From a virus, in the IMG/VR virus record IMGVR_UViG_3300027971_000227, positions 1 through 23,256 of that record: 23,256 nucleotides of DNA; one strand, given 5' to 3'. Of the stretch, positions 39 through 22,661 are shown in pieces (within the stretch, counting starts at the first letter, position 1; each line of letters opens with the position of its first letter). The notes below the pieces were generated by a model, which worked only from the letters and a program-made list of their open reading frames with translations, did no database searches and was not told the DNA's origin. The translations under genes were made by a program, and so were the position numbers.

Positions 39-53
39 TAAATAAAAAGGAAC
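39..53 (+). promoter_or_regulatory. TAAATA box and Shine-Dalgarno of the tail tube gene
   Basis: TAAATA at 39-44 resembles the T4 late -10 element TATAAATA. It is followed by AAGGAA at 48-53, a usable Shine-Dalgarno about 6 bases before the ATG at 60. This is the only TAAATA-preceded gene on the left side with room for both a leader and a ribosome binding site. Promoter activity is inferred from similarity alone. Confidence 0.45.
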
Positions 54-59
54 AAAAAT

Positions 60-686
60 ATGGCAATCTCAACATTAAGTAAATTTACAGTACCATTAGC
101 AAACGATCAGAGTTCAGCATCACAAGGTTTATTGATGCCAAAACTTCAGTATCGTTTTAGAGTAGTTCTTGAAAACTTCGGTGTATCCACTCCAAGATCA
201 GAAATCACCAAACAAGTGGTTGATGTTACCAGACCTAACTTAACGTTCGATGATGTGACACTGGATGTTTACAACTCAAGAATTTATATGGCTGGAAAAC
301 ACACATGGGAAGCTATCACATTGACATTGAGAGACGATGTTAATAACTCAGTTTCTAAATTGGTTGGTGAACAAGTTCAGAAACAATTTGATTTCTTTGA
401 ACAAGCTTCAGCTGCTTCAGGAATTGATTACAAATTCACCACTAGAATTGAAATGCTGGATGGTGGTAATGGCGCAACAGCACCAGGCATATTAGAAACT
501 TGGGAACTTTATGGCTCTTACGTACAATCAGTAAACTACAACACCTTGGCTTATGCTACATCTGAACCAGTTACAATCACCTTATCAATCAGATACGACA
601 ACGCAGTACAAACTCCACAAGGCACAGGAATTGGCACAGCATTGACAAGAACTATCGGTTCATTAGCAACAGGCGGCGGTATATAA
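60..686 (+). CDS. gp19: Tail tube protein (T4 gp19-like)
   Basis: This is the major subunit of the inner tail tube, which polymerises as stacked hexameric rings on the baseplate and forms the channel for DNA ejection. The 208-residue protein matches T4-like gp19 in its layout. An N-terminal YRFRVVLENFG strand (about 31-41) is followed by VVDVTRPNLTFDDVTLDVYNS (about 48-68), the HTWEAITLTLRDDVNN strand pair (about 81-96), and the C-terminal VQSVNYNTLAYATSEPVTITLSIRYDNA (about 154-181). It is longer than the 163-residue T4 protein; the extra length includes a Gly/Thr-rich tail after about 182. It has its own Shine-Dalgarno and is followed by a strong terminator, as expected for a highly expressed structural gene. 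Confidence 0.93.
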   Translation: MAISTLSKFTVPLANDQSSASQGLLMPKLQYRFRVVLENFGVSTPRSEITKQVVDVTRPNLTFDDVTLDVYNSRIYMAGKHTWEAITLTLRDDVNNSVSKLVGEQVQKQFDFFEQASAASGIDYKFTTRIEMLDGGNGATAPGILETWELYGSYVQSVNYNTLAYATSEPVTITLSIRYDNAVQTPQGTGIGTALTRTIGSLATGGGI

Positions 687-711: not shown

Positions 712-736
712 AAGCGCCTTTAACGGCGCTTTTTTT
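712..736 (+). terminator. Rho-independent terminator after gp19
   Basis: AAGCGCC (712-718) pairs with GGCGCTT (725-731) around a 6-base loop, with a run of seven T from 730 to 736. It sits 25 bases after the gp19 stop and just before a late-promoter-like box. It therefore separates tail tube transcription from the next block. Confidence 0.88.
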
Positions 737-741
737 GTGAC

Positions 742-749
742 TATAAATA
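742..749 (+). promoter_or_regulatory. T4-type late promoter (TATAAATA)
   Basis: This is an exact TATAAATA match to the T4 late promoter consensus, preceded by C and placed directly after the gp19 terminator. A T4 late transcript starts about 6 bases after the box, which here is at or next to the ATG at 756. No Shine-Dalgarno fits between, so the message would be leaderless or nearly so. Confidence 0.65.
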
Positions 750-755
750 TAGAGT

Positions 756-2159
756 ATGCCAAGCATTAATAATTTCTTATCAGGATTCAGCAACGGTCTT
801 CCAGGCATGAAAGATTATGCTCATGCCAGTCGCTTATACCTCGATGATAATTTTAGATTAGCACCCAAACAAAAATTTTTATTTCATGTGGTATTTGATA
901 TTGATAATGAGATACCTGCTAGGGCGTTTAGTACCAACGAAAGATTAGAACTAAACATGTTGGTAAAAAATTGCGAATTGCCCAAATACGATATGAATTT
1001 AGAAGAAAAAATACAATATAATAAAAAAACTTATGTGGCTACCAGAATAAAATACAATCCGGTCAATATAGTATTCCATGATGATCATGCAGACACTGTA
1101 AATGCTTTTTGGAAAGCATATTATGAATATAATATTTCTGATTCTTTGTCTGTTGCAAACGCTGGGGGAGCCAACGGTTTCACCAAGGATGATATGTATG
1201 GGCCTAATAGAGTGGCCACACAATTTGGTATGGACAGCGCCACAAAAAGAGCAAAACCTTTCTTAAAATCTATACAAATTTTTGCATTACATAAAAAAAG
1301 ATTCACATCATTTACTCTGATCAATCCTGTTATAGGGTCATTCAGCCACGACAATCTCGATCAAAACGATGGCGGGGGAATAATGAGCAATACCATGCAA
1401 GTATTTTATGAGACGGTCTTATACGGAGCGGGCATAGTAAACAGCAATGACATAAAAGGTTTTGCCACATTGCATTACGATCTGGAACCGTCACCACTGA
1501 GCATTCTGGGCAGAGGAACTACATCAATATTTGGTCCTGGGGGTATTGTTGATGGCATCGGTTCTGTGATCACAGATGTGGCCAACAATAATATCAACCT
1601 AGGCACGATTCTCACAGGAATCAATACCTATAATAATGCTAAAAAAATCAAAGCCAAAGAAGCAGCCAAGGAAGAGTTAAAAGGGCTCACAAAAGAGGGA
1701 GTGGTGCAGATCGGTCGACAGTCAGGCACGATAACCAACCCTGTGGGAAATTTTTCAGTTGGTAATGCCGCGATCGTGGCTGTGGCCGCAGGAGCGACAC
1801 TGGCCACTTCTAAAGGATTGGTTGACGATAAAAATAAGACCAGAAATAGGGCGATTAATAATCCTATCATTGATACACAAAATTATCTCAGCCCGACCGA
1901 ATCGTTTAATTTGTTACAATCTAATTTGTCTGCCAGAGATCAGGTGGCGTCTTCTATATATTATAAATTAAATGGTTCTAGAAAAAATTTAACCATAGCA
2001 CAGAGTGATATAGAGTATGCAGCTTCTACCGATGGCACGAAAAACATATATAGAGCCAGGGCATTGACTGATATAACTAAATTAGTAAATGAAGGATATA
2101 TCAAAATCAATAGAACTACCAACGAGGTGTATATCGTAGCAGAAAGAGCAGGATTATAA
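756..2159 (+). CDS. Tail-tube-domain structural protein with C-terminal extension
   Basis: This 467-residue protein is probably a virion component. Residues about 38-240 read like the tail-tube fold shared by T4 gp19, gp48 and gp54. A strand KFLFHVVFDID comes first, then LVKNCELPKYDMNLEEKIQYN, then KYNPVNIVFHDDHADTVNAFWKAYYEYN. A later IQIFALHKKRFTSFTLINPVIGSFSHDNLD segment resembles the late strands of gp54. Beyond about 250 it carries Gly-rich linkers, a Lys/Glu helix (about 294-312), an Ala/Val-rich stretch (about 333-350) and an unplaced C-terminal 110 residues. It could be a baseplate tube-initiator relative or a neck/tail accessory protein. It starts immediately after a late-type promoter and its stop overlaps the next start (TAATGG). 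Confidence 0.6.
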   Translation: MPSINNFLSGFSNGLPGMKDYAHASRLYLDDNFRLAPKQKFLFHVVFDIDNEIPARAFSTNERLELNMLVKNCELPKYDMNLEEKIQYNKKTYVATRIKYNPVNIVFHDDHADTVNAFWKAYYEYNISDSLSVANAGGANGFTKDDMYGPNRVATQFGMDSATKRAKPFLKSIQIFALHKKRFTSFTLINPVIGSFSHDNLDQNDGGGIMSNTMQVFYETVLYGAGIVNSNDIKGFATLHYDLEPSPLSILGRGTTSIFGPGGIVDGIGSVITDVANNNINLGTILTGINTYNNAKKIKAKEAAKEELKGLTKEGVVQIGRQSGTITNPVGNFSVGNAAIVAVAAGATLATSKGLVDDKNKTRNRAINNPIIDTQNYLSPTESFNLLQSNLSARDQVASSIYYKLNGSRKNLTIAQSDIEYAASTDGTKNIYRARALTDITKLVNEGYIKINRTTNEVYIVAERAGL

Positions 2160-2536
2160 TGGCAGAATTTTATACAAATCTACCACAGAAAGAAAAAGAT
2201 AGATTACAAAAAACAATCGATGATTTAAAAAATAATCAATATGTTGAACCTTTCCAGTTCAATATCAATGATTATGAAACTACCATAGCATTTTTTGTAA
2301 AGAGAGGATTTGATAGGCAGCCAGCAGAAGAGATAGCATATGTTATATTAAAACAATCTAAAATAGATGCTGTGCCTGTGACTCAAATACTGGATCTGTT
2401 GGGTCAATCTTCTCCCGTGCAACTGAGCGAATTAATTACAGTTGTTCTTAATGCCAATAGATTCAAGACCAGTCGACTGGGTGTCAGAAATACCAAGAAC
2501 GTTAAAGATGTAGTTTCAAGAAATGTTGTGGCCTAA
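2159..2536 (+). CDS. Small unknown protein in the structural block
   Basis: This 125-residue protein is not assigned to a family. It looks like a soluble, mostly helical protein with a charged N-terminus, a central helix-rich region (FFVKRGFDRQPAEEIAYVIL, about 47-66) and a basic C-terminal tail with SRLGVRNTKNVKDVVSRN. There is no signal peptide or membrane segment. The start overlaps the upstream stop by one base and the stop overlaps the gp4 start in the same way, so it is probably translated together with both neighbours. A head- or tail-assembly role is suggested only by that position. Confidence 0.75.
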   Translation: MAEFYTNLPQKEKDRLQKTIDDLKNNQYVEPFQFNINDYETTIAFFVKRGFDRQPAEEIAYVILKQSKIDAVPVTQILDLLGQSSPVQLSELITVVLNANRFKTSRLGVRNTKNVKDVVSRNVVA

Positions 2537-2970
2537 TGAAATTTGCAAGAGGAAAATTCATAATGAAGAATCCTGCGAAGTATGTGGGAACTAAGTCTCC
2601 AACCTATAGGAGTGGTTGGGAACACTCATTCATGCGTTTATGCGATGAGCATCCAAACGTTTATCAGTGGGCCAGTGAATCTATAAAAATTCCCTATCGT
2701 CATCCACTCACAGGCAAATACACAATTTATGTGCCGGATTTTTTCATAGTTTACATGGACAAAGATGGCAGTAAACATGCAGAATTGATAGAAGTAAAAC
2801 CCATGAATCAAATTTCCATGGCACGTGCTGGTAAAAGCACCGGTCGACAAACGCAGGTGGTTATCAATAGAGCCAAATGGGAGGCTGCCACAGCCTATGC
2901 TCGGCAGAATAGAATCACTTTTCGAGTATTGAGTGAAGAACAATTATTCCATCAAGGCAATCGTAAGTAA
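2536..2970 (+). CDS. gp4: Head completion protein / nuclease (T4 gp4-like)
   Basis: This family acts at the end of T4-like head assembly, and T4 gp4 has been reported to be a nuclease needed for morphogenesis. The 144-residue length is close to the 150 of T4. YRSGWEHSFM (24-33) contains Glu29. YVPDFF (65-70) supplies the PD of a PD-(D/E)xK core and IEVK (85-88) supplies the ExK. The following KWEAATAYAR...ITFRVLSEEQ helix-strand is typical of TnsA-like nucleases. All the expected catalytic residues are present, so it should be active. It starts one base inside the stop of the previous gene. Confidence 0.9.
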   Translation: MKFARGKFIMKNPAKYVGTKSPTYRSGWEHSFMRLCDEHPNVYQWASESIKIPYRHPLTGKYTIYVPDFFIVYMDKDGSKHAELIEVKPMNQISMARAGKSTGRQTQVVINRAKWEAATAYARQNRITFRVLSEEQLFHQGNRK

Positions 2971-2973
2971 ATA
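2968..2973 (+). promoter_or_regulatory. TAAATA box before gp16
   Basis: TAAATA lies 6 bases before the ATG at 2980. The first three bases are also the stop codon of gp4, so part of the match is forced by coding. It follows the same spacing as the other boxes in this block, and there is no Shine-Dalgarno between box and start. Confidence 0.4.
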
Positions 2974-2979
2974 TTCACA

Positions 2980-3501
2980 ATGACACGCAAACTAGAAGAG
3001 ATACTCAATTTACCAAATGTCAAGGAAGCATTTGCACAAGTGGATGCCAAGGAGAAATCTCGAGAAGACAAAGATAAACCCTCTATACCTAAAAATGTAG
3101 ACCCTCAAACTGCCAAAGCATTAGAAAAAACCTATCAAGAGTTTGACAAGATTGCAGCAGCACTGCCACAGGTTAAAGGATTGGGAGAACTCAGTGATCT
3201 GGAATTGGACAAACTGGCCATGGAAGCTGAAGAGAGCTACAAAAATCTCATGGATCTAGGCATGAACGTGGACAGCAGATATTCAGGACGTATTTTTGAG
3301 GTTGCCAGCTCGATGTTACGCAATGCCATAGACGCAAAATCTCAAAAAATTGATAAAAAATTACAGATGGTGGAGCTACAGCTCAAAAAGTTAAAAATAG
3401 ATAAAAGCGGCTCAGACGACACTAGCGAACCGGTTGAAAGCGAAGGTATGATCATTAGCGATCGTAACGAGTTAATGAAGAAACTGCTCAAGAAAGACTA
3501 A
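2980..3501 (+). CDS. gp16: Terminase small subunit (T4 gp16-like)
   Basis: The small terminase subunit forms a ring that recognises concatemeric phage DNA and regulates the gp17 motor. The 173-residue size is close to T4 gp16 (164). The central part has the two-helix pattern of the family: LGELSDLELDKLAMEAEESYK, then SRYSGRIFEVASSMLRNAIDAKSQKIDKKLQMVELQLKKL, a long amphipathic coiled-coil-like helix (about 100-140). The ends are charged and probably flexible. It lies three genes upstream of the large subunit, whereas in T4 gene 16 is directly next to gene 17. Confidence 0.8.
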   Translation: MTRKLEEILNLPNVKEAFAQVDAKEKSREDKDKPSIPKNVDPQTAKALEKTYQEFDKIAAALPQVKGLGELSDLELDKLAMEAEESYKNLMDLGMNVDSRYSGRIFEVASSMLRNAIDAKSQKIDKKLQMVELQLKKLKIDKSGSDDTSEPVESEGMIISDRNELMKKLLKKD

Positions 3502-3504
3502 ATA
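3499..3504 (+). promoter_or_regulatory. TAAATA box before the 209-residue protein
   Basis: TAAATA starts at the gp16 stop codon and ends 7 bases before the ATG at 3512. No Shine-Dalgarno is visible between. It is part of the recurring series. Confidence 0.4.
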
Positions 3505-3511
3505 CTGCATT

Positions 3512-4141
3512 ATGACAGACTTTAAACACTATCTAGCAGAATCAATTAAAGAATACAACTACAAAATCAAAGTGGCTGGTGATTTAAGCGAAGATTTTGG
3601 CACTAAATTAGAGTCGGCCTTAAAAAAATACGAAGTTAAAAGTTTGTCAAAAGGCAAAAAAACTCCTATACAGGAAATGCCATTAGATTTTCCACATTTA
3701 AAAAATCAAGCAGTGACTATATTCGAATTAACCACAATGTATCCAGCATCAGTATTTGAGATGAGAGCATTGGTTGCTGACAGCATGAGATTACATCCTA
3801 ATCAAATCGTTGTGAGAAAACCCGGAGAGCCCACAGAGGAATATCAAGAAGAAATGAAAGCCAACGCTGAGAAAAAATCAGAATTTAAATCTATGTTACA
3901 AGATGTAGAATACAAAGATGCTCCAAAAGTGAAAGCTGATGAAGTGTATGGAGATCGAGCTAATCAAAGTTTATTAAAAGAATTATTAAAAGATAGAAAA
4001 CAAAAAATGGAATTTGCTGCTAAAATTAAAGTGGAGCAGGAAATACAAAAAAACGAAGGCGATAAGAAAAATTCTGGATCACCAATCAAACCAGCACATA
4101 AAGGTCCAGTAAAAGGCAACCCAGACCCAGCAGGAAAATAA
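3512..4141 (+). CDS. Unknown protein, probably virion-associated
   Basis: This 209-residue protein is not assigned. The first ~110 residues look like a compact alpha/beta domain: YNYKIKVAGDLSEDFGTKLESALKKYEVKSLS, then a segment with PIQEMPLDFPHLKNQAVTIFELTTMYP, then VFEMRALVADSMRLHPNQIVVRKPGEP. After that comes a long, charged, low-complexity helical region rich in Lys and Glu, with a Pro/Gly/Lys tail. I believe similar proteins sit in packaging/capsid blocks of marine T4-like phages without known function. It lies between the terminase subunits and reads into the next gene after 4 bases, so it belongs to the same expression unit. Confidence 0.7.
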   Translation: MTDFKHYLAESIKEYNYKIKVAGDLSEDFGTKLESALKKYEVKSLSKGKKTPIQEMPLDFPHLKNQAVTIFELTTMYPASVFEMRALVADSMRLHPNQIVVRKPGEPTEEYQEEMKANAEKKSEFKSMLQDVEYKDAPKVKADEVYGDRANQSLLKELLKDRKQKMEFAAKIKVEQEIQKNEGDKKNSGSPIKPAHKGPVKGNPDPAGK

Positions 4142-4145
4142 ATTT

Positions 4146-5264
4146 ATGGAAATGATCGATATCTTATCTAGACTTAAACAAATTCAAGAGAGCAATCCTA
4201 ATATAGATGTTAAAGATGCAATCTCTAGTGTTGAAAAAACCAATGGTGCAGTTTCTGAAAAAGCAAAAAATCCATACGCAATTGGAATGGCTGCTGCAAT
4301 GAAAGCAACTGGAGACAAACCACCTTTAAAAAAATCTACAATCACTAAAGCTCATGACATTGCTAAAGGCATTGAAAAAAATGAAGGTGAAATAGATGAG
4401 ACAATGACTCGTCAACATTTTCAACTGTTTGCCGACACAGTGAAACAGATTGAAGATCCAATCAAACGTGCAGAAACTGCCCAACTATTAGCCGGAGTAT
4501 TTGCTAAAAGTAATCCAAGATTTGATAATGCGACATTTATGTCAGCGGCAGGCGTAGCAGAAGGCAACGAAGTGGAAGAAGGTCGAGTTAAAGATTGGTT
4601 GATGGATATGGAATCCGATGCTGTGGACATGACCAGAGAAGAATTTATCAAGAAACACGGACAATCACAGGCTCATGTATGGGATCGAGTGCAAAAACAA
4701 GAAAAAGAAAACGAATCAGTACAAGAAGCAAAACCAGACTTCTTAGATCTTGATAAAGACGGTAACAAAAAGGAACCTATGAAAAAAGCTATCAAAGATA
4801 AAGAAAAGAAAATGAATGAATCTGTTGTGATTGCAACCGACAGTCCAGAAGAAGCATCTATGATGATGCAACTATTAAAATTAGCAGGAGTACAACCAGT
4901 GAGTCAAGATATGATCAATCAACCTGCAGCAGATGTACAAGCAGATGAAGATTATGCTAACACTCCAAAAGAAAAATACAGCGACATCAAAGCAGCAGTA
5001 CCAAATGGCACAGATCTAAATCGTGAAAAAGGTGCTTATGTTAAAGCAGCTGGTGGTGATAATCCTATGGCAATTAGAACAGAAGGATCTGACATCACAG
5101 AAGAACAACTATCTAATAGTCTAAGAGCTCAATATGAGAGTTTTAAACAAACATATCAAGAGGCTGCCAAGGCAAAACCAGACTATTTGGATTTTGACAA
5201 AGATGGTAATAAAACAGAGCCCATGAAGAAAGCTCTCAAAGATAAAGAAAAGAAGGATAAATAA
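4146..5264 (+). CDS. Acidic/lysine-rich repeat protein with DxDxDGN motifs
   Basis: This 372-residue protein has no assigned function. It is strongly charged and appears modular. KNPYAIGMAAAMKATGDKPP (41-60) comes first, followed by a helical segment (about 86-180). Then come two near-identical units (196-222 and 344-370) carrying the DxDxDGN pattern of EF-hand-like calcium loops. Between them lies SPEEASMMMQLLKLAGVQPVS (233-253), a type of short segment I recall from other marine phage proteins. No catalytic motif, signal peptide or membrane helix is visible. A capsid core, scaffold or internal-protein role is a guess from its neighbours. CAGGAAA at 4131-4137 may serve as Shine-Dalgarno. Confidence 0.7.
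   Translation: MEMIDILSRLKQIQESNPNIDVKDAISSVEKTNGAVSEKAKNPYAIGMAAAMKATGDKPPLKKSTITKAHDIAKGIEKNEGEIDETMTRQHFQLFADTVKQIEDPIKRAETAQLLAGVFAKSNPRFDNATFMSAAGVAEGNEVEEGRVKDWLMDMESDAVDMTREEFIKKHGQSQAHVWDRVQKQEKENESVQEAKPDFLDLDKDGNKKEPMKKAIKDKEKKMNESVVIATDSPEEASMMMQLLKLAGVQPVSQDMINQPAADVQADEDYANTPKEKYSDIKAAVPNGTDLNREKGAYVKAAGGDNPMAIRTEGSDITEEQLSNSLRAQYESFKQTYQEAAKAKPDYLDFDKDGNKTEPMKKALKDKEKKDK
4731..4811 (+). repeat. First copy of a 27-residue DxDxDGN repeat
   Basis: It encodes residues 196-222 of the 372-residue protein, beginning KPDFLDLDKDGNKKEP. It matches the second copy at 23 of 27 residues. D201, D203 and D205 followed by Gly-Asn resemble the first half of an EF-hand loop. Confidence 0.85.
5175..5255 (+). 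repeat. Second copy of the 27-residue DxDxDGN repeat
   Basis: It encodes residues 344-370, beginning KPDYLDFDKDGNKTEP. It differs from the first copy at four positions (F/Y, L/F, K/T, I/L), all except K/T conservative. It forms almost the whole C-terminus of the protein. Confidence 0.85.
5258..5263 (+). promoter_or_regulatory. TAAATA box before the 123-residue protein
   Basis: GATAAATA ends at 5263, 6 bases before the ATG at 5270. It overlaps the end of the upstream gene, whose stop codon is 5262-5264. An AGGA at 5253-5256 could act as a distant Shine-Dalgarno if the gene is translated from a longer message. Confidence 0.4.
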
Positions 5265-5269
5265 TTTAT

Positions 5270-5641
5270 ATGGCATCAGTAACAAGAGTAACAGGTTTAA
5301 AAGCAACAGTAGGAACATTATACGATGTTAACTGCAATCTTTTCAAACTCATAGTAAAAAAAAGAGACGGTGTAGCGGTGGATCTTCGAGATGAAGACGA
5401 TGCTGTTGAAGAAGCTGTTGAACAGATATTAAAAGAACTTAATCCATTAGCATATTTTATCGCTGATGCTAGCACAGGACTAATTCATCTAGTTATGGAT
5501 AAAAATGCAACTGCTGCAGATATGCAATACAGAGTGAGAAACATCGGCAATTCCGATGACGACGGCTCAACTGTTGGTCCAAACTTGATCGACATTGGTG
5601 GATCTACAGTTACAGCAGCTACATCATTTACAGTAACTTAA
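5270..5641 (+). CDS. Unknown small protein in packaging block
   Basis: This 123-residue protein is not assigned. It looks like a small beta-rich domain. MASVTRVTGLKATVGTLYDVN is followed by an acidic helix with DEDDAVEEAVEQILKELNPLAYFI (about 42-65), then LIHLVMDKNATAADMQYRVRNIG and a Thr/Val-rich C-terminus ending in TVTAATSFTVT. That last pattern is common in phage capsid-decoration or structural proteins but is not diagnostic. It has no Cys other than one near the start, no transmembrane segment and no signal peptide. A virion component is the likeliest role, from context. Confidence 0.65.
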   Translation: MASVTRVTGLKATVGTLYDVNCNLFKLIVKKRDGVAVDLRDEDDAVEEAVEQILKELNPLAYFIADASTGLIHLVMDKNATAADMQYRVRNIGNSDDDGSTVGPNLIDIGGSTVTAATSFTVT

Positions 5642-5659
5642 TTTTACCAGATAACCCAC

Positions 5660-5665
5660 TAAATA
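5660..5665 (+). promoter_or_regulatory. TAAATA box before the 87-residue protein
   Basis: CTAAATAT lies in the 29-base gap between genes, with 5 bases between the box and the ATG at 5671. It does not overlap a stop codon, so coding constraint does not explain it. This is one of the cleaner examples in the series. Confidence 0.5.
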
Positions 5666-5670
5666 TTTTT

Positions 5671-5934
5671 ATGAATTTCTTTGGAGAGTATTCTGACGGA
5701 TTGAGATACACTTCTATAAAAGTGACCTACAAGATGCCTAATTACCAAAATATATTACAAGAGTTTTGGTGGCAGACCATGGATGTGCCTCCACGATATC
5801 CTCGAATGAAACAATTCGTGGACTATTGGAACGATTATGTGGAAGCTGTGATACACAGTCTTGAAATAGGTCATATGGATCGTTTTGGAGCCACATCATA
5901 TACCAACGTGACGGATTGGTATAAACTTAAATAA
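5671..5934 (+). CDS. Small conserved-looking unknown upstream of gp17
   Basis: This 87-residue protein is rich in aromatic residues. It begins with a short strand (YTSIKVTYKMPNY) and continues with a Trp/Tyr-rich helical part: ILQEFWWQTMDVPPRYPRMKQFVDYWNDYVEAVIHSLEIGHMDRFGATSYTNVTDWYKLK. I recall similar small proteins beside the large terminase gene in marine T4-like phages, without a known function. No catalytic motif is evident. It is separated from gp17 by 5 bases and probably shares its message. Confidence 0.7.
   Translation: MNFFGEYSDGLRYTSIKVTYKMPNYQNILQEFWWQTMDVPPRYPRMKQFVDYWNDYVEAVIHSLEIGHMDRFGATSYTNVTDWYKLK
5928..5933 (+). promoter_or_regulatory. TAAATA box before gp17
   Basis: CTTAAATAAT overlaps the end of the 87-residue gene, and the box ends 6 bases before the gp17 ATG. 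No Shine-Dalgarno lies between the box and the start. It is part of the recurring series. Confidence 0.4.
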
Positions 5935-5939
5935 TAGCC

Positions 5940-7535
5940 ATGGCATATATATCATTGGACAGTGACCAGATAAAAAAGGCACACAAGAAACACAAATATA
6001 CCACTGATCAGGTATTGAAATTAGAACAATGCATGGATCCCAAGACCGGTCCTCTTTTCTTTATGAAAGAATTTATGAGAATACAGCATCCTACCAAAGG
6101 AGAGATGCGATTTGAACCGTATCCTTATCAGGAAAGGTTGATTGAAAGTTATAATAATCACAGATTTAGTATCGCCATGCTGCCACGACAAACAGGTAAG
6201 ACCACTTGTGCTTCTGGCTATCTTTTATGGTATGCAATGTTCAAACCAGATTCTCAGATACTGATCGCAGCACACAAATATCAAGGAGCATCAGATATTA
6301 TGAGCAGGGTGCGATATGCCTACGAGATGTTGCCATCATGGATCAAGGCAGGTGTCACACAATACAATAGGAACTCTATAGAATTTGATAACGGATCCAA
6401 GATCATGGCAACCACTACCACTGAAAACACCGGTAGGGGTATGTCACTTTCTCTGATATACTGTGACGAGTTTGCATTCGTACAACCTCCCGAGAAGGCC
6501 AAAGAATTCTGGACTTCATTATCTCCCACATTGAGTACAGGAGGTAAATGTTTGATCACTTCCACACCAAACTCAGATGAGGATCAGTTCGCTCTAATTT
6601 GGAAAGAAGCCTGTAAGAGGTTTGATGATTATGGAGTTGATCGAGTAGTGGGTACCAATGGTTTTTACGCCATGAAGGCTCATTGGTCAGAACATCCGGA
6701 TAGAGATGAAAAATGGGCTGAGCAAGAGAGAAGTCGAATTGGAGAAGAAAGATTTCGCAGAGAGCACGAGTGCGAATTTTTAATATTTGATGAAACATTA
6801 ATATCTAGTATAAAATTAGTAGAATTAGAAGGCAAAGATCCGTTAATCAATATGGGACAGGTGCGTTGGTGGAAAACACCCACACCAGGAAATGCCTACA
6901 TGGTGGCACTGGATCCGAGCTTAGGCACCGGAGGGGATTTCGCTGCCATACAGGTATTTGAATTGCCAAGTTTTGAACAAGTGGGAGAATGGCATCATAA
7001 CACCACACCGGCCAATCAACAGGTTAGAATATTACAAGCGATCACAAAACATATCTATGATTCTATCGTAGAAAAAAATCCCACAGAGACTCCCGCGATA
7101 TACTACAGCATGGAGAACAATACTCTAGGTGAAGCTGTGTTATTGCGAGTGATGGATCTGGGAGAAGAGAATATTCATGGTCAATTCTTGAGCGAACCTA
7201 TACGAAAAGGACATCGTAGAAAATTTCGAAGAGGATTTAATACCACTGCTAAACATAAAATAGCAGCCTGTGCCAAATTTAAAGAATTGGTAGAATCGGG
7301 CAAGATGAAGCTTAATAGTAAACCATTAATATCAGAATTAAAAGACTTCGTAGCATCGGGCGTTTCTTATAAAGGTAAACCCGGACAACACGATGATCTA
7401 GTGAGTGCTTGCTTATTAATGACTCGTATGATGCAGGTTTTGGCCACATTTGACCCTAAAATATTTGAAAGATGGACCGATAGGACCACTGAATGGACCG
7501 CTCCAATGCCTATATTTGCCAACCTGGGTACGTAA
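5940..7535 (+). CDS. gp17: Terminase large subunit (T4 gp17-like)
   Basis: This is the packaging motor ATPase and headful nuclease, which docks on the portal and translocates DNA into the prohead. All key residues are present in the 531-residue protein. The Walker A is LPRQTGKTT (81-89), the Walker B is LIYCDE (172-177, D176/E177) and the coupling motif is TSTP (207-210). The RNase H-fold nuclease acids are D325 (VALDPS), E392 (SMENN) and D485 (GQHDDLVSA), matching D401, E458 and D542 of T4 gp17. It is shorter than T4 gp17 (610), mainly at the N-terminus. The ATG at 5940 is placed 5 bases after the preceding stop. Function is assigned with high confidence. Confidence 0.96.
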   Translation: MAYISLDSDQIKKAHKKHKYTTDQVLKLEQCMDPKTGPLFFMKEFMRIQHPTKGEMRFEPYPYQERLIESYNNHRFSIAMLPRQTGKTTCASGYLLWYAMFKPDSQILIAAHKYQGASDIMSRVRYAYEMLPSWIKAGVTQYNRNSIEFDNGSKIMATTTTENTGRGMSLSLIYCDEFAFVQPPEKAKEFWTSLSPTLSTGGKCLITSTPNSDEDQFALIWKEACKRFDDYGVDRVVGTNGFYAMKAHWSEHPDRDEKWAEQERSRIGEERFRREHECEFLIFDETLISSIKLVELEGKDPLINMGQVRWWKTPTPGNAYMVALDPSLGTGGDFAAIQVFELPSFEQVGEWHHNTTPANQQVRILQAITKHIYDSIVEKNPTETPAIYYSMENNTLGEAVLLRVMDLGEENIHGQFLSEPIRKGHRRKFRRGFNTTAKHKIAACAKFKELVESGKMKLNSKPLISELKDFVASGVSYKGKPGQHDDLVSACLLMTRMMQVLATFDPKIFERWTDRTTEWTAPMPIFANLGT

Positions 7536-7541
7536 TAAATA
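7536..7541 (+). promoter_or_regulatory. TAAATA box before the 917-residue protein
   Basis: AATAAATA follows the gp17 stop directly, and 4 bases separate the box from the ATG at 7546. The arrangement TAAATATAG-TATG closely copies that at 744-758, where the exact late consensus occurs. No Shine-Dalgarno is present. Confidence 0.45.
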
Positions 7542-7545
7542 TAGT

Positions 7546-10299
7546 ATGATCAAGCCCAAAACATCACAGGATTTATTCAATAAAATACGCAGCAAGTTTG
7601 CTAATATACAATTAGGGGACAGTGCGGGCAACGTGACTGCAGATCCCAAATCAGCAGTGTTCTTTGATTTTGAATTCAGTGAATCATCTGATAATTTTGG
7701 CAGAGTAAGCATCAGTATTGCTGATGGAGAGAGTATGAAAGTGTTCTACAATCAAGGATTAGTGGAAAAGATTGATGATACTGCTCGAGCAGATTGGTAT
7801 TCATTCCTTAAAGAGTTAAAAGACTTTGCAGTGGAACATCAAATAGGTTTTGATGTAAGAGATATCACAAAAAATAGCCTTACACAGCAGGATTTTAAGA
7901 ATCTTGCAGATGTGAATCAAACGGTAAATACAGACGATAATATGTCTGAAGAATTAAACAAACTTACAAAATTAGCGGGTATTCCGGTAGCAGAGAGTCT
8001 TAGAGGAACTAAAAAGTCTTCTTACGAAAATTTAGACAAAACAAGATTAATTATTAGACATGCGAAACCTGTGGATGAATCTGTGCCAGGAGCAAGAAGC
8101 AGACAGATCAATAGTTTATACATTGAAAATTCACAAGGTGAAAGATTCAAATATCCAATGAAGCATCTAGCAGGTGCAAGAGCAATGGCTCGTCATGTGG
8201 CCAATGGTGGTGTACCTCATGATGATTTTGGGCAACATATTATTAAAATGAGTGAACAGATTGCTCAGCTTAATAGTTTTTCAAGATACGCTGCCAACAA
8301 AGATCAGTTAAACAATTCAGTGGGCGACATCATAGAAAAAAGTCAACTTAAATTAGAAAACATGAGAAATTATGTAAAAAATTTAAGTAAACAAACACAT
8401 TACATGAAAGCCAAAGAAGGTTTTCAGCCTGCCACTATCGCCGAATTAGATGACGCTACTAGAAATAGCCTAAGAGAAAAATTTACATTAAAACATCTCG
8501 ATGACAAAGTGGAATCAGCTCTGCCATTGATTCATTCGATCATGAAAGAGTATGATGATCGAGATGGAGAGATGTCTCCACCAGTGGACCAGTCAGCAAT
8601 GGTACAATCATTCCTTGCTAATCCAGAAAAGAAATTGGTATTAAGAGCAGATCCCGCTGCTGATAAGATGTTATCAGTAACAAAATTTTCAAATAAGAAT
8701 ACTATGTTAAGTTCTATTCTATCAGATATCGCTTCAAGAATGTTAACAAGAAATAACGAAGAAGATAGAATTGCTAACTTTGCCAGCCAAGTGGCTGATG
8801 ATATGGGCAATGAAGGAGCACCATTCTTCAAACCCGATGAAAATTATACAAGAAATAAAAAGATTGCAATACAATTGGCAAAAAGATATATCGACGATTA
8901 TAGAAAAATGCAACAGGATCCAGCATATGCTGACGAAGTGAGACAAGATCCTAGCAAGTTTGCTCCTAAAAAAGATCGTCAAGGCAGAGCCAAAGGTGAG
9001 GGAGAAGAATTTGAAAAATGGGCCAACCGAGTAGAATCTAAAGTCACAGAAGGCATACATTCTTTACCAGATGAAGATCATGCTGGTGAGAATTTCAGCA
9101 AATTAAAAGATGTGATGAGCAAACATTTTCCTGTGGGCACCGAAGCGGTCAATGCTGTTACCACATTACAAAGTTTAGGATTTGGAGATGATGATCTATT
9201 TGATCAATTGGGCGAATTGGCAGATAAGGAAGGACCAGATGCTTGTGCTTGTGAAACAGTTAAAAATTATATCATGAACACTCTGTTAAAGAGTCCAAAT
9301 ATCAGCAATTACTACACACCAGAACAGATCACAGCTCTACAAGATGCTGCATCTGCTTCTGATAATAGAAAAGAGAAAGAACCAAACAAATCCGATGACT
9401 CTTTTGATTATGCGATGAGCACAACCAAGGCGCCGGCAGAATCAGTGGTAAAAGAATCCGATCGACCTATCATGATCGATGGCAAGCAAGTGGACCTAAA
9501 CACCATAGAATATGAAATGCAAGATATCGGTGATAATATATACGACCTACAAGGTGCTAAGTTTGTGGATGGCACAGAGTTATCCGATGAACAAATGGAA
9601 AAATTAATGGTTGATATGGATTTCAATGATTGGGTGCAGCAGGATCATGCAGAAAGATATGCAGATGCCATGCAGGAAGCACCAGTAGACACTTCAGATA
9701 TGCACATAGTTGGCATAGGACGAGGAGAAAAAGAAGAAGTGCAGCAGATATTAGACAGAAACAAAGAATCATATGATGCTATACTGGGTGGGGAAGATCT
9801 AATAACTTTTGGCAAACTATACCGCGAATTGATATCCTATTACATGAGCAATGGAGAAATGCCATATGAAGTAGCGAAGGCTAGAGAAGGAGATCCCGAA
9901 CAGTGGATCATGGATCGATTGGACAGCATGGGATTGCTAGAAACGACCCAAGAATCTCAGGTTAGCATTGATGATGAATATAGATTTCGTGATTGGTTGA
10001 AAAAAACACATAACAAAGAAGTAGGGCTACTGACACCACAGGAATATATTATAGTTTCTAAACAGTACAGAGACGAGCAAGATAAAAAGAAACAAGAGAG
10101 CGTGGGCGGTGGACCAACTGTAAGCCAGATGAGTGACTTAGAATTAGCTAATTTCCTACACACGTCAGTGGCAGAAGTTAAAAAAGACAGAGAAGCTGCT
10201 GAAGAAGCAGCACAAGAAATAAATCAAAAATATGCCAGCGATAACGAGTCGGTAAAAGAAGACGAATTAGCAGTGATCAAAAGACTATCCGGCATCTAA
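7546..10299 (+). CDS. Large unknown protein after gp17
   Basis: This protein is 917 residues from the ATG at 7546. An upstream in-frame ATG at 7450 would overlap gp17 by 86 bases and is rejected. Function is unknown. The first ~130 residues form a distinct module (SAVFFDFEFSESSDNFGRVSIS...DWYSFLKELKDFAVEHQIGFDVRDITK) that I recall from other large marine phage proteins. Met133 then opens MSEELNKLTKLAGIP. The rest is mostly helical, charged and lacks membrane segments, with a short patterned piece FVDGTELSDEQMEKL. The C-terminus repeats the theme (LAVIKRLSGI). VAES and VTEG resemble T4 prohead protease sites, so an internal head protein is possible but unproven. The next gene starts immediately after its stop. 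Confidence 0.75.
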   Translation: MIKPKTSQDLFNKIRSKFANIQLGDSAGNVTADPKSAVFFDFEFSESSDNFGRVSISIADGESMKVFYNQGLVEKIDDTARADWYSFLKELKDFAVEHQIGFDVRDITKNSLTQQDFKNLADVNQTVNTDDNMSEELNKLTKLAGIPVAESLRGTKKSSYENLDKTRLIIRHAKPVDESVPGARSRQINSLYIENSQGERFKYPMKHLAGARAMARHVANGGVPHDDFGQHIIKMSEQIAQLNSFSRYAANKDQLNNSVGDIIEKSQLKLENMRNYVKNLSKQTHYMKAKEGFQPATIAELDDATRNSLREKFTLKHLDDKVESALPLIHSIMKEYDDRDGEMSPPVDQSAMVQSFLANPEKKLVLRADPAADKMLSVTKFSNKNTMLSSILSDIASRMLTRNNEEDRIANFASQVADDMGNEGAPFFKPDENYTRNKKIAIQLAKRYIDDYRKMQQDPAYADEVRQDPSKFAPKKDRQGRAKGEGEEFEKWANRVESKVTEGIHSLPDEDHAGENFSKLKDVMSKHFPVGTEAVNAVTTLQSLGFGDDDLFDQLGELADKEGPDACACETVKNYIMNTLLKSPNISNYYTPEQITALQDAASASDNRKEKEPNKSDDSFDYAMSTTKAPAESVVKESDRPIMIDGKQVDLNTIEYEMQDIGDNIYDLQGAKFVDGTELSDEQMEKLMVDMDFNDWVQQDHAERYADAMQEAPVDTSDMHIVGIGRGEKEEVQQILDRNKESYDAILGGEDLITFGKLYRELISYYMSNGEMPYEVAKAREGDPEQWIMDRLDSMGLLETTQESQVSIDDEYRFRDWLKKTHNKEVGLLTPQEYIIVSKQYRDEQDKKKQESVGGGPTVSQMSDLELANFLHTSVAEVKKDREAAEEAAQEINQKYASDNESVKEDELAVIKRLSGI

Positions 10300-15952: not shown

Positions 15953-16407
15953 TAGAAGATATTTGGAAAATAGAAAAAAAACACTGTTATACAATGCCTT
16001 TTGTGCATATCTATTGTCAAAAATTTATTTCTTTAAAAATATATGAAAGATTATACGAACAATGGAATAATATAGAACATATACATTGGCAAAAATTTAT
16101 TGAAGAAAATAATATTGAAGTTTATTTTCATGAGAATCTTATAGAACAACCTATTTTAAAAAAAAATAATCCTTACGTAGGTTATTGGTTTTTTAAACAA
16201 AGAACAGACAAAAAAGCCGATAATTCTTTAAATCTTTCGATGAAAGGAAAAGATAAGGTCATGTCTTGTCTAGGTAATGATATTTTAATTTTAAATAAAG
16301 AAAATAAACTTCATGTCAGACCTAGAAAAAGTATAATGAAAATTCCTTTTTGTGAAATATATTTTGGCGAATCTGCTAATGAAAAAATTAGAATTTTGTT
16401 AAATTAA
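15949..16407 (+). CDS. Unknown protein linked to the glycosyltransferase
   Basis: This is a 152-residue protein from the ATG at 15949, which overlaps the upstream stop as ATGA. An in-frame ATG at 15916 would need a longer overlap and is less likely. I recognise no family. It is rich in Ile, Lys, Asn and aromatic residues, starting MIEDIWKIEKKHCYTMPFVH, with a GYWFFKQRTDKK segment in the middle and FCEIYFGES near the end. The gene is visibly more A+T-rich than the phage core. It converges with the leftward gene and the two coding ends overlap by 4 bases. Confidence 0.6.
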   Translation: MIEDIWKIEKKHCYTMPFVHIYCQKFISLKIYERLYEQWNNIEHIHWQKFIEENNIEVYFHENLIEQPILKKNNPYVGYWFFKQRTDKKADNSLNLSMKGKDKVMSCLGNDILILNKENKLHVRPRKSIMKIPFCEIYFGESANEKIRILLN

Positions 16408-17135
16408 TTTTTATAACTATCTATAAATTCTTGTAATTTTTTTACATCTGCATTTAAATGTCGATCTCGAACTTTTTCCCAAACATAATTATCTCGAATG
16501 TTAATATTTAAATTTTTTCTAACTAATACTGCAGTATCATCGAAAACTTTTTTTGCTTGAACTAATGTTTTAGTTAGAAAAAAACAACGACCAAGTTTTG
16601 CAGCAACTTTTTGAGTGTAGGTATCTACATACCAATGCCAAAAAAATGGAGGAACAAAATAGCCGAGTGCTTTCATCCAGTTTCGATGCACAGCAAAGTG
16701 CGGACTGCCTACTCTTTCATTTTCTTTTAATTGATAAGGCTCTTCGTGTATCAATAACGCATTTCCATTTCCTTTGCCGTTGCCATCGAATGGTGCTGCC
16801 ATACAAATTTTATCTGGAAACATTTCAAAAATTTTAATAATATTGAGATCCCAGTTTTTAGTCATAAACTGTATGTCATCGCCTGCTAAAAATAATATAT
16901 CGTGTTTGGCCGCTTCAGCTAATTGATTCCAACTATAACAAGTGCTTTGATTAGGTCCTATTGTGTAATATTTTTTATCAATATATTTTTTATAATCATC
17001 CAACGTTGTATCATCTTCGTTTAGATATAACAATATTTCTATATTGTTAGATTGGCTAACTGTTTTATAGGCAGTGTCTATCATTCTTTTAGCGAGCTTC
17101 GGGCGTCCTCTAGACGGACATAAAATTGATATCAT
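16404..17135 (-). CDS. Family 2-like glycosyltransferase
   Basis: This 243-residue GT-A enzyme begins MISILCPSRGRPKLAKRMID, the classical GT2 N-terminal strand and loop. LYLNEDD (36-42) follows, and LFLAGDDIQF (81-90) carries the GDD (85-87) at the metal-binding DxD position. PHFAVHRNWMKALGYF and HWYVDTYTQKVA (167-178, D171) are placed like acceptor-site and catalytic-base regions. It has no transmembrane segments, so it acts on a soluble or peripheral acceptor. It is the last gene of a three-gene leftward unit and overlaps the epimerase stop by 4 bases. Confidence 0.8.
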   Translation of the reverse strand: MISILCPSRGRPKLAKRMIDTAYKTVSQSNNIEILLYLNEDDTTLDDYKKYIDKKYYTIGPNQSTCYSWNQLAEAAKHDILFLAGDDIQFMTKNWDLNIIKIFEMFPDKICMAAPFDGNGKGNGNALLIHEEPYQLKENERVGSPHFAVHRNWMKALGYFVPPFFWHWYVDTYTQKVAAKLGRCFFLTKTLVQAKKVFDDTAVLVRKNLNINIRDNYVWEKVRDRHLNADVKKLQEFIDSYKN

Positions 17136-18133
17136 ATTAATCTATCTTTCCAGGTCTTAGGAGTCTTGTCACTGATTATTTCTAGAGGAAGATGATATTT
17201 GAATTTTCGTGTGCCTCTTTGTCGTATATAATCTGCGGTTTTCTTTACAGCAGTTTTTAAATTAGTGGTGGTACGATAATTTAACAATCGACGAGCTTTG
17301 TCAGCCGAGCAAGTGGCCAGTTTTACTTCTTTCGGTCGGTCCTCGTAATGTATAGGATCCAAGTTGCAGCCTGTTTCATTGGCACACAGTTCTGATAGTT
17401 GATTAATACTTACAAATTCTTCGTCTGGGCCAATATTGATTATTTCTCCCTTGACATTCTCATTGAATGCTAGCTCATTTAAACAATAAAGACAGTCATC
17501 GATATAACTGAAACATCTTTTCTGTTCTCCGTCCCCATAAATTACAGGTGCTTTACCTTGTAACATTCTATTCAACATAATACTCATTACATTTCGGAAA
17601 GGATCATCATATTTCTGTCTAGGTCCTACAATGTTGTGTGGCACTGCTATATTCCATTCTATGCCGTGTGTGTCACATAAATTTTTAATCACTCTCTCGC
17701 CTGCTTCTTTGGCAATGCCATATGGATCCTGTGGTTTGGGCTCATATTCTTCGCGGAAAGGCACCTGATTGGTTCCATATCTTGCCATAGAACTGCAGTA
17801 AACAAATCTTTTAACTTGATTCTTTATTGCTGCTGTCACTGTGGATACTGATGCTTCAAATATATTTTGAGTTACTAACAGTGGGCTGAATACACTCAAC
17901 CCCTCGTAGGCAGTAGCGGCACAATGATACACTATGTCGCTGCCTCGCATGGCTTCTGTCATCTTATCTAAGTCTCGACAATCAATCTGATGAAACTCTA
18001 CACCTTCTGGTATATTATCGCTGTATCCACCGATCATGTTATCATTACCGGCTACCTGATGACCATTAGATATCATTAGATCTGCTAAATGCGATCCTAA
18101 AAATCCAGCAACACCTGTTATAAAAATCTTCAT
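17132..18133 (-). CDS. NAD-dependent sugar epimerase/dehydratase (extended SDR)
   Basis: This 333-residue enzyme probably acts on nucleotide sugars and resembles UDP-glucose 4-epimerases. TGVAGFLG (6-13) is the NAD-binding GxxGxxG. IDCRDLD (50-56) is followed by the HCAA segment (70-73), catalytic YCSS (112-115), Y138 and K142 in YGIAK, and the substrate-binding PHNIVGPRQKYDD (165-177). All catalytic residues are intact and the length is normal. It shares an operon with the GT2-like gene below it (4-base overlap) and the capsule-like protein above it (28-base gap). It would supply a modified sugar donor to the neighbouring transferases. Confidence 0.9.
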   Translation of the reverse strand: MKIFITGVAGFLGSHLADLMISNGHQVAGNDNMIGGYSDNIPEGVEFHQIDCRDLDKMTEAMRGSDIVYHCAATAYEGLSVFSPLLVTQNIFEASVSTVTAAIKNQVKRFVYCSSMARYGTNQVPFREEYEPKPQDPYGIAKEAGERVIKNLCDTHGIEWNIAVPHNIVGPRQKYDDPFRNVMSIMLNRMLQGKAPVIYGDGEQKRCFSYIDDCLYCLNELAFNENVKGEIINIGPDEEFVSINQLSELCANETGCNLDPIHYEDRPKEVKLATCSADKARRLLNYRTTTNLKTAVKKTADYIRQRGTRKFKYHLPLEIISDKTPKTWKDRLI

Positions 18134-18161
18134 TATATATTAATTATTCCTATTTTTATAT

Positions 18162-18974
18162 TCATAACATTCTGATTTCTTTTAAAATACTGATTGCCTT
18201 GCCATTAGCATATTCTTGAGGGGTGAACTGTTGATAAGCTAATGAATATAACCATTCCGTTGGATCTACATATAATGGATTTTCTATTTCGGCTAGGCTA
18301 GACGATGATACGGACCAAGCAAAACTTTTTGGATCACTGAATATTGGCACCCCTTCTAATGCTGCCTCTACGGCACTGATGCTGCAACTGGTCACGCAAG
18401 CCCACGCATTCTTTAAATCTTGTTCTAACGGCACATCGGCCACAGCCGGACCAGATGTCCCAGCCTTCCTGGGTTTCTCTCTTATCTTGATAGGACGATC
18501 AGTATATTTTTTTATTTCTTTTATAGTGTTATCTAACCAATTGGTTTTTTTAAGATATTTGTGTATGACTATACTGCTAGGACAAATAAGAATATACTCG
18601 CCCTGATTTTTATCTCTCATCTTAATTTTTAAATTAAACTTATCAAATCTATCCGGGGGACAATCTCTCCAATATCTAGCATGTATTTGATTCTTGCAAA
18701 TCCTCCAATAATGATTATCATCTTTTAAATTGTTATTATCAAACCTTCCAAAATAAGGAGTATCGGTGTACCAATAATCTAAACCTTGCTGCTCTAACTG
18801 ATGTACAAGATCGATATTGTTATTAACAAATCCCCAAAACATTGCAGGAGATTCTGCTGTGTTTTCCAAATTACTCTTTATCTTAACCGCGGTGGGCCAA
18901 GACTGCTTGATTCCATCAAACACTTCCCAGCATTTACTTTTGGTATTTTCTAGAGGTGCGTATATGGTTAACAT
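18162..18974 (-). CDS. Capsule-synthesis-like protein, paralogue A
   Basis: This 270-residue protein is related to the genes at 20869-21684 and 21674-22660. Shared landmarks are a YWYTDTPYFGR segment (67-77) and CPPDRFDKF (105-113). ILICPSS (128-134) is followed by WLDNTIKEIKKYTDRPIKIREK (146-167). The C-terminal half has VTSCSISAVEAALEGVPIFSD and YSLAYQQFTPQEYANG. The overall plan resembles the GT-B C-terminal half of capsule enzymes such as KpsC/KpsS, but the HP motif is replaced by REK. Activity is therefore uncertain. It is the first gene of the leftward unit and is divergent from the GT61-like gene, with 35 bases between. Confidence 0.65.
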   Translation of the reverse strand: MLTIYAPLENTKSKCWEVFDGIKQSWPTAVKIKSNLENTAESPAMFWGFVNNNIDLVHQLEQQGLDYWYTDTPYFGRFDNNNLKDDNHYWRICKNQIHARYWRDCPPDRFDKFNLKIKMRDKNQGEYILICPSSIVIHKYLKKTNWLDNTIKEIKKYTDRPIKIREKPRKAGTSGPAVADVPLEQDLKNAWACVTSCSISAVEAALEGVPIFSDPKSFAWSVSSSSLAEIENPLYVDPTEWLYSLAYQQFTPQEYANGKAISILKEIRML

Positions 18975-18996
18975 CTGTACTATTTTATAGTATAAT
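18968..18996 (+). promoter_or_regulatory. Near-consensus host-type promoter, divergent region
   Basis: TTAACA (18968-18973, five of six) and a perfect TATAAT (18991-18996) are spaced 17 and point right toward the ATG at 19010. The -10 lies in the palindrome TATAATTATA (18991-19000). On the other strand CTATAAAATA (18990-18981) lies 6 bases before the leftward ATG at 18974, like the TAAATA boxes on the left side. Both genes could start from this 35-base gap. Confidence 0.65.
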
Positions 18997-19009
18997 TATA
19001 GAAAATACA

Positions 19010-20086
19010 ATGATTGTAAAAAACATATCGACCATACAATACTTCCAAGAACGCTTCGATATTCTGGATGTACCATATCAATACACTGTGGATTATCATC
19101 CTGCTGCTCCTAAGAAAACTTTTACCACTAATCCTACTTTTATAGCAGAATTTCATGATTGTGTGACACACAGTCTACCATTGATAATCACTAATGAAAA
19201 TCATATGATCACTTCACATATCTGGCCATTGTTGCACAATACTCGATATAAACCACACAAGACTCACGGATTATGGCAGACCTGGGGAGAGAATGTAGAT
19301 ATATCTCTACCTGCTCCTAGCAAACAACTTTTTGAAGAGTACAAATACGTATGGTTACCTATCGACGAGCAGAGTGCTAACAATGCCTGGCACATATGGA
19401 TTGATGTAATATCAAAGTTTAGATTAATAGAAAAATATTTCAGTCTCAAATACACAGATTTTATCTATGTGTTGAGTAGTCCTAGTGAATATTTTGATCG
19501 TGTAGCCAAAGAATTATTTCCAGATCTAAGATATTATGTGATGCCTAAAAACACCACATGGAAATTTGCACATCTATTGGCCCCTTCTATGAGTAATCAC
19601 GAAGACGGTATAACAGTGCCTGACGCAGTGAAATGGTTGAGACATAAATTTGGTAGAAAACTAAACCCTACTAGAAAAATCTTTATCAGCAGAGATGATG
19701 CACCTGCAAGGAAATTGATCAACGCCGAAGAGGTGTTCATGGCTCTGCAAGGCTGGGAAACAATAACGCTAACTGGAATGAGCACACAAAAACAGATAGG
19801 ACTTTTTTCAGAGGCCGGTCATGTAATATCTACACACGGTGCCGGATTAACTAATCTACTATGGTGCCAACCAGGAACAAAAGTGGTAGAAATAAGTCAA
19901 AAAGAATTGTTAGAAAAGAAAGTTTACCCTATCCTAAGCCATCACCTGGGATTATCTCACCATGTGTTATTAGGAAAAAAAGTGCCAATTAGAGGAAACA
20001 AAGTTAAAGGAGTTAAAAGAAAAAAAGATTTTAATAACATATCTGTTAATCCATCTGTGCTATTTGAATTAATTAACAAACTGTGA
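19010..20086 (+). CDS. GT61-like glycosyltransferase (DUF563 type)
   Basis: This protein is 358 residues from the ATG at 19010. An in-frame ATG at 18956 lies upstream of the likely promoter and inside the divergent gene, so it is rejected. The N-terminal part contains an AWHIWIDVISKF segment (126-137), followed by ISRDDAPARK (226-235). THGAGLTNLLWCQPGTKVVEI (275-295), the hallmark of GT61/DUF563 proteins, comes next. These enzymes transfer pentoses or GlcNAc to glycans or proteins; the donor here is unknown. No membrane segment or signal peptide is evident. Its 3' end overlaps the convergent gene by 18 bases. Confidence 0.82.
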   Translation: MIVKNISTIQYFQERFDILDVPYQYTVDYHPAAPKKTFTTNPTFIAEFHDCVTHSLPLIITNENHMITSHIWPLLHNTRYKPHKTHGLWQTWGENVDISLPAPSKQLFEEYKYVWLPIDEQSANNAWHIWIDVISKFRLIEKYFSLKYTDFIYVLSSPSEYFDRVAKELFPDLRYYVMPKNTTWKFAHLLAPSMSNHEDGITVPDAVKWLRHKFGRKLNPTRKIFISRDDAPARKLINAEEVFMALQGWETITLTGMSTQKQIGLFSEAGHVISTHGAGLTNLLWCQPGTKVVEISQKELLEKKVYPILSHHLGLSHHVLLGKKVPIRGNKVKGVKRKKDFNNISVNPSVLFELINKL

Positions 20087-20821: not shown

Positions 20822-20868
20822 GACAATCTTTATATTTAAGCGATAGAAAAAACAAATAATTAATAATA
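20822..20868. promoter_or_regulatory. Divergent intergenic gap
   Basis: This 47-base A+T-rich gap lies between two outward-reading genes. On the minus strand CTTAAATA ends at 20833, 11 bases before the ATG at 20821, again like the late-type box. I see no clear -35/-10 pair or Shine-Dalgarno for the rightward gene, only AATAATTAATAATA directly before its ATG. Confidence 0.35.
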
Positions 20869-22660: not shown

Positions 22661-22661
22661 T

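Follow-up and report, generated by a model that had tools for sequence, protein, structure and literature searches.

In the 23,256-base virus record IMGVR_UViG_3300027971_000227 of IMG/VR, analysed over its whole length (hereafter the window), seven genes carry the hexamer TAAATA 4 to 7 bases before their ATG. These boxes are probably (about four chances in five) late promoters of the T4 type, read by a gp55-class sigma factor, in which the start of transcription would be shifted onto the start codon or to within about 2 bases of it, giving leaderless late mRNAs. The window encodes tail tube, head closure, terminase, gp32-, UvsX- and UvsY-like genes, and the terminase of 80 viral contigs is 82-98% identical to its own; these relatives and the window are referred to below as the clade. 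The arrangement had been proposed in a sequence-only reading of the window, and all seven positions and gaps (the number of bases between box and ATG) were verified (Table 1). Near boxes at 7 of the 27 ATG starts of the window compare with an expectation of 0.02-0.09 (P ~1e-16 to 3e-12), and when the 20 bases upstream of each start were shuffled 5000 times, this number was reached in 0 cases. A shuffle of the pattern over the whole window gave an expectation of 5.4, which is compatible with the enrichment because any ATG was counted there, not gene starts.

Enrichment and conservation of the boxes

Gene starts in all records were taken as those of first-ATG open reading frames (ORFs), uncurated, and the loci are partly redundant and were deduplicated only where stated. 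In the clade, TAAATA stands at gap 4-8 in 84 of 373 deduplicated starts, whereas dinucleotide shuffles give a mean of 3.9 and a maximum of 9, a strong enrichment at this spacing in related genomes that is in favour of the sequence-only reading. A wider set of further loci has near boxes at 168 of 1355 starts (shuffles 13.8, maximum 23), and two long records have them at 30/412 (G019, 328 kb; shuffles 7.1) and 33/415 (G020, 354 kb; shuffles 3.4). At gap 4-7 no hexamer is commoner in the clade than TAAATA, which also leads among its 15 letter permutations. Without deduplication, the share of starts with a near box was 123/307 in loci whose terminase is at least 92% identical to that of the window and 266/770 at 80-92%, followed by 63/245 at 60-70%, 245/1501 at 54-60%, 46/442 at 50-54% and 5/221 at 45-50%.

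Stop codons account for part of the letters, as had been pointed out from the start: the boxes at 2968 and 3499 begin with a TAA stop and those at 5258 and 5928 share their last two bases with one (four of the seven), those at 744, 5660 and 7536 being free, and in the clade 25 of the 84 near boxes are affected, 17 starting with the stop and 8 overlapping one at the box end. However, it is extremely improbable that the match is forced by coding, through a TAA stop and A/T-rich bases before a close start. The remaining 59 of the 84 clade boxes overlap no stop, the enrichment thus extending beyond stop-codon overlaps, and shuffles yield just 3.9 near boxes among 373 starts. The box of 3512 persists where the upstream gene and its stop are different, and the genes at 2159 and 2536 also adjoin stops, yet have a near box in 0/65 and 0/67 orthologues. 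The stop-free boxes and the orthologues of these three genes rule out stop-codon forcing as the main cause.

The near box is retained in almost all orthologues of the seven genes (Table 1), in counts which exclude loci with a late-starting match, no nearby ATG or fewer than 60 bases upstream and whose n therefore differs by gene. When upstream stretches at least 85% alike were dropped, the five genes examined still had it in 11/11, 21/24, 13/13, 27/29 and 18/18. The six letters of the box are constant among orthologues and the flanks and spacers are variable. No near box was found in orthologues of gp32 (0/58), UvsX (0/40) or UvsY (0/31), those of gp32 having a Shine-Dalgarno sequence in 58/58, nor in those of gene 4146 (0/22) or of 2159 and 2536, which are start-stop-coupled neighbours. 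The tail tube gene at 60, which the sequence-only reading had set against the seven as having a more distant box and a Shine-Dalgarno sequence, has both in the window, and its orthologues have a far box in 38/51 and a Shine-Dalgarno sequence in 46/51.

Table 1. Boxes, terminator-like hairpin and associated genes in the window. Gap, bases between box and ATG; orthologues, those with a near box.
Feature	Position	Strand	Gap (ATG)	Orthologues	Remarks
Far box TAAATA	39..44	+	15 (60)		AAGGA (Shine-Dalgarno) between box and ATG
Tail tube gene	60..686
Intrinsic-terminator-like hairpin (GCGCC/GGCGC) and seven T	714..736	+			ends 7 bases before box of gene 756
Candidate late-promoter box TATAAATA	742..749	+	6 (756)	55/55	TAAATA at 744
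Second tail tube-like gene, predicted near-leaderless	756..2159	+			phrog_4542 6e-9, phrog_13438 9.6e-9
Box TAAATA	2968..2973	+	6 (2980)	64/67	starts with stop of 2536-2970
Gene, weak small-terminase similarity	2980..3501	+			phrog_16202 1.3e-13, phrog_445 5e-4
Box TAAATA	3499..3504	+	7 (3512)	71/71	starts with stop of 2980-3501
Virion structural protein gene	3512..4141	+			phrog_14802 8.1e-8
Box TAAATA	5258..5263	+	6 (5270)	19/21	overlaps stop of 4146-5264
Gene of unknown function, 123 aa	5270..5641	+			no match in PHROG or Pfam
Box TAAATA	5660..5665	+	5 (5671)	16/19	no stop overlap; other 3 orthologues TAAGTA
Usg-like gene	5671..5934	+			PF06233 1.7e-19
Box TAAATA	5928..5933	+	6 (5940)	74/79	overlaps stop of 5671-5934
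Terminase large subunit gene	5940..7535	+			PF03237 2.5e-23
Box TAAATA	7536..7541	+	4 (7546)	78/78	directly 3' of terminase stop
Virion structural protein gene	7546..10299	+			phrog_13484 8.9e-14

Two spacings and promoter signs in the DNA

Among 2508 deduplicated starts the distribution of gaps is bimodal, with one mode at 4-8 (peak at 5) and another at 18-24. From gap 4 to gap 8 the boxes per position number 30, 142, 48, 57 and 28, followed by 3.7 at gaps 9-11, 7.3 at 12-14 and 5.0 at 15-17, and 19.0 and 21.2 at 18-20 and 21-24. Avoidance of gaps 9-17 had been expected, but these gaps are at chance against shuffles (10 vs 6.5; 29 vs 23.4), and the claim is therefore limited to a lack of enrichment between the two modes. 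A Shine-Dalgarno sequence is found in 7 of 305 starts at gap 4-8 (a figure which supersedes an earlier clade count of 0/84) and in 84 of the 142 at gap 18-24; in the controls it occurs in 33% of 1785 box-free starts and in 43/291 starts where a different A/T hexamer occupies that position. At gene 5270 an AAGGA lies 12 bases 5' of the ATG, upstream of the box and within the preceding gene. Near and far boxes in the wider set have the same weak preference for preceding bases, and orthologues pass from one mode to the other. Outside the clade, with loci excluded on the grounds given above, all orthologues of 3512 have the box, near in 19/107 and far in 88/107, and those of 7546 have it near in 70/117 and far in 32/117. 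On a terminase tree this amounts to at least 3 switches for 3512 and at least 9 for 7546, counts that rest on 135 of 242 rows and a quick method with no shuffle control, recombination being possible.

Usual Shine-Dalgarno spacing includes gap 5-7. The same distance, the near-absence of Shine-Dalgarno sequences from near-box genes and their low 5'-end structure (first 30 nt, -1.11 vs -1.67 kcal/mol) would suit a TAAATA that is no promoter and acts as a ribosome-recruiting or unstructured A/T element in place of the Shine-Dalgarno sequence. However, this is unlikely, since TAAATA and its complement TATTTA are both depleted inside genes relative to synonymous-codon shuffles, at 0.38/0.29 in the clade, the antisense strand as strongly as the sense strand, a symmetry not expected of an element that acts in RNA. 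Because the depletion is present on the antisense strand too, it points to a promoter in DNA and not to an RNA or ribosome signal. The corresponding values are 0.23/0.12 in G001, 0.45/0.66 in G019 and 0.47/0.57 in G020, with weak depletion in PA5oct (0.77/0.92). They are 1.14/1.33 in HTVC010P and 1.04/0.93 in Staphylococcus phage K, two phages counted as gp55-free in that their records have no phrog_234 match. Eight other words show less depletion in the clade (0.76 to 1.13), and in G020 some are nearly as depleted as the box (ATAAAT 0.53). Also against a ribosome element are the orthologues that carry the identical box 18-24 bases upstream together with a Shine-Dalgarno sequence, the absence of the box at gp32, UvsX and UvsY starts, and the terminator that abuts the box of gene 756.

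This terminator, a five-base-pair hairpin with a T-run, ends exactly 7 bases before TAAATA in 55/55 orthologues of 756 (the distance being given for 17 distinct ones), and the fourth pair of its stem is C-G in 28, T-G in 21 and T-A in 6. From its last T to the ATG there are 19 bases in the window, and an RNA starting between the two therefore has almost no leader. The terminator also bears on whether the boxes are only minor promoters, with late mRNA coming mostly by read-through from far promoters and leaderless RNA as a by-product. In favour of this are the tight packing of the genes on one strand and the upstream position of the tail tube gene's far box, but a terminator stands directly before the 756 box in all 55 orthologues, the near-box starts have almost no Shine-Dalgarno sequence for translating a read-through RNA, and the conservation of the boxes is near-complete; this explanation is unlikely. 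Two divergently oriented genes of G020, separated by just 29 bases (locus L311, 13397-13426), each have TAAATA 5-6 bases before the ATG, making up a minimal back-to-back promoter pair. Divergent pairs within 70 bases in this record number 3 with two near boxes among 26 with at least one, some of which may be artefacts of ORF calling.

Probable late promoters and predicted leaderless mRNAs

On the favoured reading, a late sigma factor of the phage would recruit host RNA polymerase to the box and transcription would begin about 5-6 bases after it, placing the 5' end of the mRNA at or next to the AUG with no Shine-Dalgarno sequence, and translation would take the leaderless route. Each near-box gene would then be an independent late unit, the promoter before 756 being fused directly to a terminator. 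The box, its spacing and conservation, the missing Shine-Dalgarno sequence, the two spacing modes, the depletion on both strands, the terminator and the gp55 homologue of relatives are seen in the sequences; the use of the box, the position of the RNA start, the late timing and the route of translation are inferred. The T4 late promoter is described as an 8-base box which is read by gp55 and has its first base at -13, roughly one turn of the helix upstream of the start (PMC2988020). With this geometry (box from -13 to -6) a gap of 5 places +1 on the A of the ATG, as for 5671, and the predicted leaders of the seven genes in order are 1, 1, 2, 1, 0, 1 and -1 nt. Leaderless mRNAs are reported to need an AUG that lies at the 5' end or close to it (PMC9031893). 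Starts at gap 5-7 are ATG in 645 cases, GTG in 4 and TTG in 0, an agreement which is weak because starts with AGGAG are also mostly ATG (366, with 5 GTG and 3 TTG); the lack of a Shine-Dalgarno sequence (7/305) agrees as well.

A gp55-type sigma factor (phrog_234) is present in the clade of the window, in G001 (2.3e-24) and G005 (2.9e-25). In a first search, over 18 viral records, these were the two with a gp55-class protein; in a second, over 5 records, G019, G020 and G022 had one, records without a match being possibly fragments; PA5oct, GAP32, Phosso and T4 have it too. The gp45 clamp (phrog_223) was matched in T4 only (1/9 records), the eight jumbo-phage records (G001, G005, G019, G020, G022, PA5oct, GAP32 and Phosso) being negative, although some of these are fragments and a diverged clamp could escape the search. 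With gp55 present and gp45 unmatched, late activation in these phages may differ from that of T4. A named translation factor was sought as well, and the G001 protein that matches the 'IF-2-like' gp139 of PA5oct has no Pfam family. The gene for ribosomal protein bS21 in G020 (232944-233180) has a near box of its own at gap 7; a search of 14 records found bS21 in 7, with 0 of 5 for the records of the clade, which are fragments.

Several observations weigh against a T4-type late promoter of this kind. The TAAATA core is present in 7/7 boxes of the window but the full 8-mer TATAAATA in 1/7, the only copy in the window, which starts at 742, the coordinate that the sequence-only reading gave for this box; the two bases in front of the core differ from gene to gene. 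The gap of 4 at 7546, found in 38 of its 78 orthologues, puts a strict T4 +1 inside the AUG, and the start would therefore have to be one base earlier. CA after the start is reported to help leaderless translation (PMC9031893), and an enrichment of CA after the starts predicted to be leaderless was looked for and none was found. No gp55 was found in the window, a fragment too short to show a copy of its own, and with gp45 unmatched the evidence falls short of the complete T4 late machinery. Lastly, near boxes had been expected to be restricted to virion genes, and in whole records this is not clearly seen: virion orthologues have them in 5/40 against 4/56 for other orthologues in G019 and in 5/33 against 6/56 in G020, with 21/316 and 22/327 at genes without an orthologue. 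In G001 the corresponding numbers are 7/28 for virion genes, 2/23 for other orthologues and 9/100 without orthologue. Of the near-leaderless virion messages first proposed, the T4-type late-promoter reading is supported by the enrichment and the DNA-level signs, and the limitation to virion genes is softened.

Known systems, hosts and meaning

Ranked by terminase, the nearest named relatives of the window are jumbo phages of the PA5oct group (55.7% identity), followed by Phosso (47.9%) and phages of the GAP32 type (~41%). In T4, GAP32, Phosso and PA5oct the box is mostly far upstream. At gap 4-8 it was found in 0/51 starts of T4 (49 of 169 kb), 0/49 of GAP32 (42 of 359 kb), 0/48 of Phosso (42 of 469 kb), 0/23 of Syn9 (49 of 177 kb) and 1/300 of PA5oct (~241 of 287 kb), and in 2/56 of HTVC008M (49 of 147 kb), which equals the shuffle maximum. 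T4 late transcription is the textbook system, with mRNAs that have leaders and Shine-Dalgarno sequences. The late promoters of T4 (TATAAATA, gp55) share with the boxes described here the TAAATA core, a gp55-type sigma factor (in relatives of the window), the class of late genes and a weak strand-symmetric depletion inside genes (0.79/0.57), but the far-box genes of T4 have a Shine-Dalgarno sequence in 11/15, whereas in the clade no leader is predicted and the consensus is relaxed at its first two bases. Very short leaders are also known from the late transcripts of phiKZ. In the jumbo phages CBB and GAP32 a late motif ATAAATA before structural genes has been reported together with a gp55-like protein, no gp45 homologue having been found there (PMC5259590); These share the kind of phage, the gp55-like protein and the motif at structural genes, but in GAP32 the box is far upstream. 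The cyanophage late motif NATAAATA (PMC2984593) shares the core and the gene class, without the near position in Syn9. In PA5oct a count of 371 starts gave 2 at gap 5 and none at gap 4 or 6-8. One PA5oct gene, gp262 (144985-145854; 36092-36961 in locus L081), has a gap-5 box and no Shine-Dalgarno sequence, and is annotated as a structural protein with electrospray ionisation tandem mass spectrometry (ESI-MS/MS). In the openly accessible literature searched (titles and abstract openings, with most subscription journals outside), an arrangement of TAAATA and start codon of this kind is not described.

Some alphaproteobacteria have numerous leaderless mRNAs that start at the A of the AUG, which in Caulobacter are reported to be translated about as well as those with leaders and in Sinorhizobium all to begin with AUG (PMC4117421, PMC3616915). 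Those are cellular genes, whereas the window has a phage late regulon that is predicted to be leaderless. As to the host, the Usg-like gene is flanked by a near-box gene on one side and the terminase gene on the other. Its family (PF06233) is known from Alphaproteobacteria. Five bacterial-bin contigs have four different taxon labels, including Pelagibacter and Rickettsiales and also Beta- and Gammaproteobacteria. The Usg-like gene and the Pelagibacter and Rickettsiales bins hint at alphaproteobacterial hosts, but the bins with the Beta- and Gammaproteobacteria labels do not. The recombination genes of the window are followed at 16404-23255 by sugar and glycan genes on both strands (glycosyltransferases, an NAD-dependent epimerase and a glutamine amidotransferase domain).

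Throughout this lineage, which is widespread in the environment, promoter and translation start appear to be merged. Where the two are merged, a single mutation would hit both, and each late gene would be its own unit. It is possible, though rather doubtful at this stage, that leaderless mRNA made through such fusions of promoter and start codon carries much of the late programme in a large branch of uncultured jumbo phages related to T4, with orthologues switching between leaderless and Shine-Dalgarno modes, and that the late phase could favour leaderless initiation, perhaps by way of phage proteins like bS21. A TAAATA-ATG rule would sharpen the calling of gene starts in metagenomic jumbo phages, and gp262 of the cultured PA5oct makes the arrangement directly testable. 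Orthologues that have the same promoter box but differ in whether a leader is predicted form natural pairs for asking why phages would drop leaders.

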